Assembly (NCBI RefSeq): GCF_900104845.1
Contig: NZ_FNSR01000001.1
Span: 1,736,001-1,800,000, forward strand
Reading direction: 5' to 3'
From: Paraburkholderia caballeronis
GTDB taxonomy: Bacteria > Pseudomonadota > Gammaproteobacteria > Burkholderiales > Burkholderiaceae
DNA length: 64,000 bases
This document shows, in pieces, positions 48,804-57,631 of this stretch. How positions within the stretch are numbered: the stretch's first letter is position 1; each line of letters begins with the position of its first letter. The notes below the pieces were generated by a model. That model saw only the letters and a list, made by a program, of their open reading frames with translations. It had not been told where the DNA came from and did not search any database. A program made the translations under genes and the position numbers.

Positions 48804-48811
48804 GTAAAATC

Positions 48812-48851
48812 AAAGGGTTACGTCGAATGCGACGTAACCCTTTTGTTTTTT
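48812..48851 (+). terminator. strong terminator after the tRNA cluster
   Basis: A 14-bp perfect stem (aaagggttacgtcg / cgacgtaaccc plus ttt) with AATG loop followed by a T-rich run; starts nine bases after the last tRNA. Confidence 0.9.
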
Positions 48852-48860
48852 CCGCGCACC

Positions 48861-48885
48861 GTGTCCTGGACTTGTCCTAAAAATC
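48861..48885 (+). repeat. left copy of a 25-base imperfect direct repeat
   Basis: Begins GTGTCCTGGACTTGTCCT and ends AAATC; 21 of 25 bases match 57444-57468 in the same orientation. Contains the dyad GGACTTGTCC. The right copy lies just upstream of the integrase fragment's start codon, so this may be a remnant of an integrase promoter or att-flank. Confidence 0.5.
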
Positions 48886-49132
48886 TTGGCTTCGCGCCTG
48901 TTGTGCGTGGGCGACGCGAGGTGGCCGCAGCTATCGTGTCCGTGACGGCGAAGTTCGATCTGATGAAGAGCATGCGCCGAGGCCGATTATTAAAAGAACT
49001 GTGTAACCAGGTTGAAGCGACGCAAACTCGCCGCTGCGGCGCTCCAGGCCCAGCGTGCACCCATCCCCGCGCCAATCCGTCCCTGCACTGACCGCGTCAT
49101 GCCCGCGTTGGCCTGCTGCAAACCCTCGTCGC

Positions 49133-50230
49133 CTGGAGCGGTGGACGGGCCTGGATCGCAGCTTGCGGCGTGAGGTCGGCAACGATGGCATGGTGCGTAC
49201 CGGACCCTTCGCCGAACCCTGGCGGCAACGCCAGCGGCAAGTGCTGATCGGCCGCCTGCAACACTTGCGGCGCCTCGGACCGGCGACCGGGCAGCCACTG
49301 GCGAGTGGACTGCCCATGCCGAGGCCGAGCCGGGCATGCGAGCAATGGGCGAGCGCGGCGACATCATCCGCACGATGCAGCGCGCCATGAGCGGCCAACA
49401 GCGCGAGCTGGCCGTGTTCGTGCCGGGCAGCGACGGTCACATCCTCATCGGTCGCGTGGTCAGCAAGGGGCTGGCCGACGAGCTGTACGACAAGGGCTAC
49501 CTTATCGTCGATGGTACGGACGGCAAGGCGCGCTACGTCGCGCTGCCGCCGCGGTCGGAGCTGAAGCGGTATTCAACCGGCGCGGTGATTGAAGTGAAAG
49601 GTGCGGGCCGACGTGCGCGTCGCCGACCGCAACATCGCCGCGCTGGCCGTCGATGGCATCTACCGCACCGGTCATCATCTGGCCGTCGCCCAAGGTAAGG
49701 CCACGCCCGACCGCGACCCCCGTAAGGTGGTGGCCGCCCATGTGCGTCGGCTCGAAGCCCTACGTCGGGCCGGCATCATGGAGCGCGAGGCCGAAGGTGT
49801 TTGGCATATCCCTGGCGATCTGGCCGAGCGGAGTCGCCAGTACGACGCGCCGCCTCTTGGCGGTGGCGTCGCGGGGGAGCTGAAATCGTATCTGCCGATC
49901 GAGCGGCAGGCCCGCGTGATCGGTGCCGCCCGGCTCGACCCGCAGTTGATCGGCGACGGCAAGGGGCTGGGCGACCTGGGCTTTGGGGCCGAGGTCAAGG
50001 ACGCGCTACGCCAGCGCACCGACTTCCTGGCCGAACAGGGATTGGCCGAGCAGCGGGGACAACGCGTCGTTCTCGCGCGCCAGCGGACGCTACGCGATGC
50101 TCGACGACCGTGTGGGCTTCTCGCTGGTGCCGTGGAAGCCGGCAATCGAACAACGGTTGGGGAGGCAGATTGCCGCGATGGTGCGAGTTGGCGGCGTGTC
50201 CTCGGAGGTTGGACGACAACACGGCATGTC
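49133..50230 (+). pseudogene. relaxase (DUF3363, RlxS/VirD2-like) C-terminal region, multiply broken
   Basis: Remnant of a conjugative-element relaxase. Segments in three frames line up in order with the DUF3363 part of such proteins: LRREVGNDGMVRTGPFAEP and RQRQVLIGRLQHLRRLG (to ~49285); then WTAHAEAEPGMRAMGERGDIIRT up to YSTGAVIEVKG (~49600); then VADRNIAALAVDGIYRTGHH through RDPRKVVAAHVRRLEALRRAG to EQGLAEQRGQRVVLAR (~50080); then ASGRYAMLDDRVGFSLVPWKP and LGRQIAAMVRVGGVSSEVGRQ. Two junctions are simple frameshifts; the last also lacks ~45 residues present in intact relatives. The N-terminal nicking domain is absent. The normal stop is lost and the frame runs into the AraC gene's 3' end. 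Confidence 0.75.
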
Positions 50231-50240
50231 GATACGAAGC

Positions 50241-51014
50241 TCAGACCGTACTGAGTTCACTGGGGCTGATTCCCATCACACGCTTGAACATCCGGCTGAA
50301 AGACCCCGTATTTTCGTAACCTAACGAGAGCGCAATGGTGGTGACGGGCTCGCCTGCGACCAACCCGACGACCGCCTCGGTCAGCCGGATCTGTTGGCGC
50401 CAGTCGGTGAAAGACAAGGTGGTTTCGTCCTTGATTCGGCGCGTGAACGTGCGCACGGACATGTTTGCGAGCGAAGCCCAGTGCTCGATGCTTTCACGAC
50501 TCCCCGGCTCGTGGCGCAATGCCTCCTCGACCCGGATCAGCCGAGGATCGGAAACGCGCGGCATGTAGAACTCCGTCGGGAGCACGAACCGCATCTCGCT
50601 GAAAATCAGCGAAAGAACCTGAGCGGCCGCGCCCGAGGCCCCTTCTTCGATAGGTAGATCAACCGCTCGCAGGATCAGTTCACGCAACAGCGGCGTGACA
50701 TAAACGAGTGCCGGGGCCTCGGGCAATGGCCGATCGACGTCCGATATCCGGACGAACAAAGTCCGCAGTTCAACGTCCGTGCGCGCACGCATTTCGTGGC
50801 CGACTTGGGCAGGCATCCACAGCGCTCTCTGCGGTGGAAGCAGCCAGTGGTGATCGCTCGTGCTGACTTCCATGACGCCCGAAATCGCATAGATCAACTG
50901 CGCACGCTTGTGCGCGTGCAGCGGATTGACATACCCGCGCGGGAAATGCTTCGCCATCGCACCGACATAACCCGGTACGTCCTGGAAATCATCTCGGTTA
51001 CGGCTCTTGTGCAT
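50241..51014 (-). CDS. AraC-family transcriptional regulator (island cargo)
   Basis: 257 aa from the ATG at 51014 (MHKSRNRDDFQDVPGY); a Met 11 codons upstream is a weaker alternative. N-terminal cupin-like sensor: HFPRGYVNPLHAHKRAQLIYAISGVMEV and QRALWMPAQVGHEMRA. C-terminal double helix-turn-helix: HWASLANMSVRTFTRRIKDE and the signature IALSLGYENTGSFSRMFKRVMG. It is divergent from the decarboxylase-like gene at 51154 across 139 bases and most likely regulates that pair; effector unknown. Confidence 0.9.
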   Translation of the reverse strand: MHKSRNRDDFQDVPGYVGAMAKHFPRGYVNPLHAHKRAQLIYAISGVMEVSTSDHHWLLPPQRALWMPAQVGHEMRARTDVELRTLFVRISDVDRPLPEAPALVYVTPLLRELILRAVDLPIEEGASGAAAQVLSLIFSEMRFVLPTEFYMPRVSDPRLIRVEEALRHEPGSRESIEHWASLANMSVRTFTRRIKDETTLSFTDWRQQIRLTEAVVGLVAGEPVTTIALSLGYENTGSFSRMFKRVMGISPSELSTV

Positions 51015-56622: not shown

Positions 56623-57266
56623 TGAAGAAAGGAAAGACAAAACTTACCCGCGAGGATGCCGAGCGTCTTTTCGCTGGGCTGTCCGGTGGGAGCGCGAGAG
56701 TATCGAGCCGGCCCGAAAACCCGTTCGAAGCGGGTGCGTTCGAGGCGGTCAAACGCGTCGACGACGAAGCCGGACTCTGGAAAGACAACCTGATTACGCT
56801 TCCCGCGGCGATCGAGTTGCCCGCCGGCTATGAGTCGGTGTCCCGCATGCGCGACGCGATGGTGCGGGCTTGGCGCGTGAGGTGGGTGAGGGAAGGTAAA
56901 AACGAGGTCGTCACCGAGTTCCCCGAAGGATGGACTGCTGTTCGCCCGGAAAACGGCCCGATAGCGCTGCGGGATCCGTCGGGCGTGGTCCGCGCGTTAT
57001 ACGGATGGGCCGCGGATGCCGAGCTTAAAATCCTGCCGCGGTATCTGGTCGAGTCGCAGGCGAACAGTTCAAGCGGATTAGGTAGTCTGCTGGTCCGCGA
57101 TCGCGGGAACGGTCAGATTCTTGAGCGGTCGTCGACCTGGTCTGCACAGACTGGCACGCATCATCCGGACTGGATCAGGCTGTCGGCGTGGCTCGATTCG
57201 CGCTATCCGGCGCATCGCGACCCGTTGCGGTACTGGGACGATTGCGAGGAAAACCTCCGGAATTGA
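56622..57266 (+). CDS. unrecognised cytoplasmic protein
   Basis: 214 aa from ATG 56622 (MKKGKTKLTREDAERLFAGL), with GAGAGAAAG upstream inside the preceding frame. A charged N-terminus is followed by a globular, Trp-rich region (MVRAWRVRWVREGKNEVVTEF, GWTAVRPENGPIALRDPSGVV) and ends DPLRYWDDCEENLRN. No signal peptide, membrane segment or known motif. GC is clearly lower than in the chromosomal flanks, in keeping with acquired DNA. Last gene before the integrase remnant. Confidence 0.6.
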   Translation: MKKGKTKLTREDAERLFAGLSGGSARVSSRPENPFEAGAFEAVKRVDDEAGLWKDNLITLPAAIELPAGYESVSRMRDAMVRAWRVRWVREGKNEVVTEFPEGWTAVRPENGPIALRDPSGVVRALYGWAADAELKILPRYLVESQANSSSGLGSLLVRDRGNGQILERSSTWSAQTGTHHPDWIRLSAWLDSRYPAHRDPLRYWDDCEENLRN

Positions 57267-57287
57267 GCTATTTGGTAGGTCGGGCAA

Positions 57288-57440
57288 TTACCCGCTCCGA
57301 TTGTCGACGACGTAGCGGACGAGCCATGTTTGGGTTCCATCCGTCGAGGCGCGAAGGTACAGGTCGCGATCGACTGTTATCTTGTAGCCCTTTTTTCAGG
57401 CCTTCAGGGCTTCGATGCCACGGACTGTGAGGTACGGCAC
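57288..57440 (-). pseudogene. tyrosine integrase, N-terminal fragment with internal stop
   Basis: Minus-strand remnant of a phage/island integrase. From GTG (first base 57440) it reads MPYLTVRGIEALKA, an in-frame TGA (57396-57398), then KKGYKITVDRDLYLRAST followed by DGTQTWLVRYVVDNRSG and a TAA. This matches the DUF4102-type arm-binding N-terminus of P4-like integrases (IEALKP..KGYKI.VDRGLYLR pattern); the internal stop replaces what is normally an Arg or Pro codon. Only ~50 of ~400 codons remain; the catalytic domain is gone. Its position beside the tRNA-Asp remnant supports integration at that site. Confidence 0.72.
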
Positions 57441-57443
57441 GGC

Positions 57444-57468
57444 GTGTCCTGGATTTGCCCTGGAAATC
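57444..57468 (+). repeat. right copy of the 25-base imperfect direct repeat
   Basis: Begins GTGTCCTGGATTTGCCCT and ends AAATC; 21/25 identical to 48861-48885. It sits 4 bases upstream of the integrase fragment's start codon (minus strand). Confidence 0.5.
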
Positions 57469-57577
57469 GAAGGATTTCCACGATCCTCGTGGAATCACAT
57501 CGGTGAGAATAATCAATAAGCCATTGTTTTATAAATGAATTTTTAGTCAGGCGAGTTCCGGTGACATCCGGGTCTAA

Positions 57578-57631
57578 CGGCCTGTCACGCCGGGGCCGGG
57601 CGCGGGTTCGAGTCCCCGTCCGCTTCGCCAG
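57578..57631 (+). other. decayed 3' half of tRNA-Asp (att site remnant)
   Basis: Starts CGGCCTGTCACGCCGGGG (anticodon arm with GTC), continues through GCGGGTTCGAGTCCCC (T arm) and ends in a CGCTTCGCCAG acceptor end. Relative to the tRNA-Asp genes it has a few small insertions and one substitution, so it no longer folds properly. Sequence 5' of the anticodon arm is unrelated to tRNA. Confidence 0.8.

Follow-up and report, generated by a model that had tools for sequence, protein, structure and literature searches.

The window analysed here comprises 64,000 nucleotides of Paraburkholderia caballeronis (assembly GCF_900104845.1, contig NZ_FNSR01000001.1, positions 1,736,001 to 1,800,000), part of a 7.1 Mb, 3-contig genome. 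Based on two bracketing pieces of tRNA-Asp and on the state of the same site in relatives, we conclude, with a probability of about 0.86, that 8.77 kb of the window is foreign DNA occupying a site found empty in 51 of the 62 relatives examined, that a tyrosine integrase likely inserted this DNA by recombining at the anticodon arm of the tRNA, and that it is predicted to be immobile now.

Boundaries of the insertion

The 8.77 kb is enclosed by an intact tRNA-Asp (48727-48803) and a degenerate 3' half of tRNA-Asp (57575-57631). The features at the two ends are:

48037-48803, 3' of gltX: tRNA array Ala-Glu-Asp-Glu-Asp
48727..48803, plus strand: intact tRNA-Asp(gtc), last in the gltX-linked tRNA array (ARAGORN call and upstream-flank match)
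48752..48804, plus strand: core resembling a left attachment site (attL-like), from the anticodon stem to the tRNA 3' end (alignment to the displaced fragment)
48806..48849, unstranded: element-side terminator (inverted repeat) after the intact tRNA, foreign to empty sites
48860..48885, plus strand: 26-bp direct repeat, left copy, candidate integrase arm site
57443..57468, plus strand: 26-bp direct repeat, right copy, just upstream of the integrase piece
57575..57631, plus strand: displaced degenerate tRNA-Asp 3' half, attR-like core (alignment and own-genome search)
57637..57671, plus strand: native tRNA-Asp terminator, as found 3' of the last Asp in empty sites
57763..58257, plus strand: GNAT acetyltransferase gene forming the native right flank; alignment of homologues starts at ~57793

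When 57575-57631 was aligned with 48752-48804, 50 of the 53 aligned bases were identical, with 4 gap bases, and the match was recovered from the organism's own genome with E 1.4e-11. ARAGORN did not call this segment as a tRNA, and Rfam returned no tRNA match for it with E up to 1. The score of the 77 bases 5' of the fragment against the tRNA 5' half was reached by 43 of 500 shuffles, hardly above chance; the 5' half of the displaced tRNA-Asp is gone. An intact tRNA at one end and a same-orientation 3' fragment of the same tRNA at the other form the arrangement expected of a tRNA island. The first-pass annotation of this DNA had placed ~8.8 kb of accessory DNA after the intact tRNA-Asp at 48727 and a degenerate tRNA-Asp 3' half near 57578, and both placements hold.

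This layout is consistent with an element whose circular form would have contained its own copy of the tRNA's 3' half. Integration, presumably by the integrase, would have regenerated a complete tRNA-Asp at the left end and displaced the old 3' half to the right end; the 5' part of the tRNA-Asp at 48727-48803 is native, and the element likely restored its 3' part.

Empty sites and flanks in relatives

Two sets of relatives were compared: 34 genomes of the same genus, in which the distance from the last tRNA-Asp to the GNAT gene was read, and 28 more, most of them near by gltX, with G126 and G134 picked for their match to the left end. An empty site, in which the last tRNA-Asp leads directly into the terminator and the GNAT gene, was present in 28 of 34 genomes of the first set (tRNA within ~0.3 kb of GNAT) and in 23 of 28 of the second (139-227 bases). 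Five genomes of the first set (G004, G027, G031, G032 and G034) carry the two genes on the same contig, ~2.75 to 25.6 kb apart, and in G126 the distance is 989 bases. The site could not be classified in G007, where it is split over contigs, or in four genomes of the second set (three contig ends, and G134, with no GNAT gene in 4.4 kb); in G018 and G013, runs of N mask part of the tRNA. Both sets together give 51 of 62 empty sites, 6 other spacers and 5 unclassifiable sites, and the nearest classifiable relatives by gltX share the clean empty junction. The bracketing by tRNA-Asp pieces and the empty site are thus direct observations, and the latter is what the first-pass annotation had predicted for relatives, namely tRNA-Asp running straight into the terminator and GNAT. 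The opposite outcome, relatives carrying the same stretch with none empty, did not occur, because 51 of 62 sites are empty and the 310 bp at the right end are present only in the organism's own genome among 144.

The flanks were scored against those of the last tRNA-Asp in relatives, leaving aside loci L010 and L013, in which the last Asp or its flank is masked or cut. The 66 bases 5' of the tRNA at 48727 match the corresponding flank in seven close relatives (L011, L014-L019) with scores of 26-41, as compared with a maximum of 19 in 200 shuffles, and score lower in the remaining relatives. On the other side, when the DNA following the last Asp was compared with the 60 bases 3' of the displaced fragment, 14 of the 22 relatives that could be scored gave 20-34 and the remaining 8 gave 8-17, whereas the 60 bases 3' of the intact tRNA scored 12 or less in all 22.

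The Glu-Asp pair of the array occurs in one, two or three copies depending on the relative (L010-L038, L317-L344). The spacers of 2.75-25.6 kb in five relatives (L192-L199) lack a second tRNA-Asp piece; none was found in any of the six longer spacers (0/6) by a search that recovers the window's own fragment.

Repeats at the element ends

The two copies of the 26-bp repeat are identical at 22 of 26 positions, a value equalled by none of 500 shuffles (best shuffle, 19), and are set inwards from the cores by 55 bases on the left and 106 bases on the right. The core of the left copy, GTGTCCTGGAYTTGTCC, is present exactly in 2 of 144 genomes (G000 and G126), in both just 3' of a tRNA-Asp in a Glu-Asp array. 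The repeats are placed like integrase arm-type sites, which in the circular form would flank the core on both sides. The viral contigs neither favour nor rule against the arm-site reading: a 19-mer of the core motif was found in 0 contigs, and the context of those with a 16-base core was assessed visually, using the nearest reading frame and ARAGORN results, without a family search.

Sequence of the left end was also found in G126 (91% over 78 bp) and, more weakly, in G134 (83% over 59 bp), each time next to the final tRNA-Asp of a Glu-Asp array; in G126, gltX lies ~77 kb from this array. The G126 locus (contig C10; L204/L340) has the same left end followed by ~0.9 kb to GNAT, without a right tRNA piece, and is possibly a further reduced relative of the element. 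Separately, sequence like the left terminator occurs 3' of other tRNA genes (Arg, Val, Ala and Met) in other genomes (L177, L178, L181, L188).

Broken mobility genes

Remains of two mobility genes lie inside the ends:

49136..50234, plus strand: relaxase pseudogene, DUF3363, RlxS/Tn4371-like; residues 1-248 and ~570-606 absent, frame changes
57291..57440, minus strand: probable N-terminal integrase fragment, arm-DNA-binding domain, inner stop, 50 codons

In different frames, the remains of the relaxase gene correspond to residues 249-276, 299-403, 403-569 and 607-658 of the pBYT5-1 relaxase, which has 658 residues, and DUF3363 was detected in two frames (E 7.2e-29 and 5.7e-47), as expected from the broken relaxase described in the first-pass annotation. 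Against the NCBIfam model, the pieces reached 73.5 and 90.3 bits at a cut-off of 850, and their ratio of nonsynonymous to synonymous substitution (dN/dS) was 0.198-0.475, as compared with 0.146-0.259 for intact relaxases among themselves. The predicted integrase fragment just inside the right end was located as a piece with an inner stop, the identity of which is probable; it had no tblastn match in plasmids. No transfer family beyond the two relaxase pieces was matched in the ten frames scanned, in which no trb query was made, and the combination of an intact integrase with attachment sites that marks an active tRNA-targeted island was not found.

The earlier proposal that the element lost mobility and kept cargo agrees with the broken relaxase and integrase and with the seven cargo frames that are open. 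The broken state of the displaced half, the integrase and the relaxase is observed directly, and decay in the absence of selection would account for it.

Cargo genes

Between the broken mobility genes lie seven genes with open frames and one repeat array:

50241..51047, minus strand: AraC-family regulator with cupin domain, open
51154..51684, plus strand: carboxymuconolactone-decarboxylase family protein, open
51725..53113, plus strand: aldehyde dehydrogenase, nearest to the NCBIfam succinate-semialdehyde type but below its cut-off, open
53419..53522, unstranded: tandem array built from an 11-nt unit, GTTCGCCCGTA, preceding the kinase gene
53589..54446, plus strand: PA4780-family RIO1-like kinase, open, sole copy found in the genome
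54480..55547, plus strand: zinc-binding alcohol dehydrogenase/quinone oxidoreductase (QOR), open
55587..56396, plus strand: p8, conserved hypothetical protein of Burkholderiaceae, open, sole copy found in the genome
56619..57266, plus strand: p9, hypothetical protein, open; adjoins p8 also in G006 and G030

The kinase scored 464.5 bits against NF041645 (cut-off 350). Some database names for p8 refer to DUF4238, yet it has no Pfam domain. A role as defence cargo was considered and rejected: PADLOC, run on five proteins, gave 4 weak matches for the RIO1-like kinase and none for the other four. The GTTCGCCCGTA array was found only in loci of the own genome (L119, L139, L190) among the loci compared, and the upstream region common to other kinase loci is largely absent at the window's kinase.

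As compared with relatives, the dN/dS of the kinase, QOR, p8 and p9 was 0.093-0.155, and that of the relatives among themselves 0.042-0.241; for QOR, the relatives' values (0.061-0.109) are below those of the window (0.121-0.149). The seven cargo genes have stayed open, four of them with low dN/dS, which may reflect selection since insertion.

Neighbourhoods of the right-half genes

By identity to the window protein, the kinase family of the genus divides into two groups, and at E up to 1e-60 a member of either group is present in 85 of 144 genomes (own included). Counting as shared a same-side neighbour in common within 3 kb, the two clades behave oppositely: in the clade of the window kinase (87-93% identical, 23 loci from 21 genomes or records; L205, L209, L214, L263-L282) a neighbour was common to 2 of 253 pairs, whereas in the sister clade (77-81% identical, 20 loci; L243-L262) it was common to 173 of 190, so that two groups of one genus share their neighbourhood almost never and almost always, respectively. 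Beyond common families (ABC, LysR and SDR, read from first residues), no recurrent neighbour of the kinase was seen. Sharing was likewise infrequent for p8 (14 of 231 pairs in the genus; 86 of 3160 over 80 named loci) and p9 (6 of 136 pairs), and for QOR it was 4 of 15, for loci chosen by score and, for these three, taken from the two best places per genome, which is a non-random sample. Three genes surviving in the island thus have differing surroundings in almost all relatives compared. In the relatives listed, the kinase, QOR, p8 and p9 lie apart, except for p8-p9 in G006 and G030 (L201 and L202), where the pair lies in a 1774-bp stretch shared at 97% identity; beyond it, the 12 kb compared contained no further stretch in common.

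The unit shared by kinase loci consists of the gene with ~150-300 bp upstream (medians 152-265 over the loci of 23 relatives) and, in most loci, ~30-90 bp downstream. A transposon-like unit with fixed ends was rejected, the ends being uneven and terminal repeats not being established by inspection by eye. In P. caribensis the kinase lies within a longer strain-specific stretch (~3.5 kb by query coordinates), which argues against a clean one-gene insertion. Vertical relocation was also set aside, as the weak correlation of kinase with gltX distances (Mantel r 0.31 for all sites and 0.35 for third positions, 30 genomes) fits transfer between species better; none of 2000 permutations reached the observed value, which indicates that some shared descent is present. 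Third positions of the window kinase differ from G103 and G087 at 21-22% of sites, as compared with 32-33% for gltX, and since the kinase also diverges more slowly on average (0.263 vs. 0.323), this gap only leans towards interspecies transfer.

It is conceivable, though we consider it rather doubtful, that the right half of the island was gathered from one-gene units roaming on their own (the RIO1-like kinase, p8 and p9, each ~0.8-1.2 kb with its own promoter and no recombination gene) that spread through Paraburkholderia, settled beside different genes on almost every occasion and here became caught next to one another in an island already in decay. In a control of generic gene pairs of at least 75% identity at differently anchored loci, a neighbour was shared in 3 of 13, a small sample; low sharing is therefore partly a trait of accessory DNA here, and the claim is kept as a side result. 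The kinase clades make testable whether some bacterial genes move singly between species without a mobile element of their own, and this roaming cargo, more unusual than the island itself, is the part that deserves follow-up.

Alternative explanations

Several observations weigh against a tRNA-targeted insertion as described above. The 35-residue integrase piece matches Arm-DNA-bind_3 weakly (E 0.011, 16.3 bits; curated threshold 27), and the relaxase is of a type that does not belong to the tRNA-inserting kind. The arm-site reading of the repeats stands on their position and rarity, and 23 viral contigs with the 16-base core include none with supporting context. The divergence of the pairs used for dN/dS is probably mostly older than the island, so these values tell little about the time since insertion. 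An intact element with both ends was not found, the right-end 310 bp being present in 1 of 144 genomes, the own one. Relatives have one to three Asp genes at this position, which leaves a decayed third copy conceivable, and, where a species has three Asp genes, the DNA flanking the second can resemble that of the window almost as closely as does the DNA flanking the last. These last two points favour a different history, in which the fragment derives from a third tRNA-Asp native to the array, whose 5' half was lost, together with the third Glu, when DNA was later inserted and deleted between the second and third Asp, without any tRNA-targeted integration. Many close relatives do have three Glu-Asp pairs. 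Such a deletion must, however, end exactly at the anticodon arm, which is a usual crossover region; two-Asp genomes occur among the nearest relatives by gltX (G079); and the matched repeats inside both ends, as well as their rarity, are left unexplained. We therefore consider this history improbable. Still less credible, indeed barely so, is that the species carries the stretch as ordinary chromosomal DNA and that relatives have lost it. Most cargo genes have matches somewhere in the genus, but a tRNA fragment would not be expected, and the clean empty junction in 51 of 62 relatives, including the nearest classifiable by gltX, already contradicts it.

A far closer contender, to which we give slightly less than an even chance, holds that a tRNA-targeting element gave the ends only and that the DNA between them accumulated through several unrelated insertions into a permissive locus. 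It would accommodate a relaxase from elements that have another target; the dispersed kinase, QOR, p8 and p9 with mostly unlike neighbours in relatives; and the spacers at the same spot in five relatives that contain no second tRNA-Asp piece. The recurrence of p8-p9 adjacency in G006 and G030 speaks against it, as parts may have come in together. Since the relaxase resembles the Tn4371/RlxS type, the target of which is not a tRNA, the island is probably composite, likely built in more than one step with a second, Tn4371-like source. The first-pass annotation had described an integrative and conjugative or mobilisable element; its tRNA-targeted insertion is supported, and its single element gives way to a probably composite one with the relaxase of another element type.

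Comparison with known systems

Our literature search returned no paper on a genomic island at tRNA-Asp with an integrase in Burkholderia or on the PA4780-family RIO1-like kinase, none from single-gene searches, and nothing on point by title for RIO kinase, bacteria and horizontal gene transfer. Likeness to the PA4780-family RIO1-like kinase (NF041645) covers the family of one cargo gene only.

The DUF3363/RlxS-like relaxase, present as pseudogene pieces scoring below the NCBIfam cut-off, may link the window to integrative and conjugative elements (ICEs) of the Tn4371 family. Its intact homologues in pBYT5-1 and G004 come after repA-parA-parB-DUF2840-S26 peptidase, an order that, with the relaxase, corresponds to the Tn4371 layout. 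In contrast, the window has no repA, parA, parB, DUF2840 or S26 peptidase gene beside its relaxase, and of ten pBYT5-1 proteins only the relaxase matched (0/9 for the nine other genes). In the published description, the Tn4371 relaxase resembles RlxS and is mentioned beside a TraF protease, and characterised elements of the family insert at TTTTTCAT-like sites and not in tRNA (PMC2789088); the ends of the island, unlike these TTTTTCAT-type sites, are tRNA-Asp cores.

Closer in its ends is the tRNA-targeted island as mapped by Islander, where endpoints are marked by a regenerated tRNA gene and a displaced fragment (PMC4383910). The present island shares the regenerated gene at one end and the displaced fragment at the other, and differs from islands so described in that its integrase is a fragment and its displaced core carries gaps and mismatches. 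The event is of an ordinary kind, the remnant of a tRNA-targeted, probably composite island, and it provides a case, complete with empty sites, of such an island in which the genes for mobility were lost and the reading frames of the cargo remained open.

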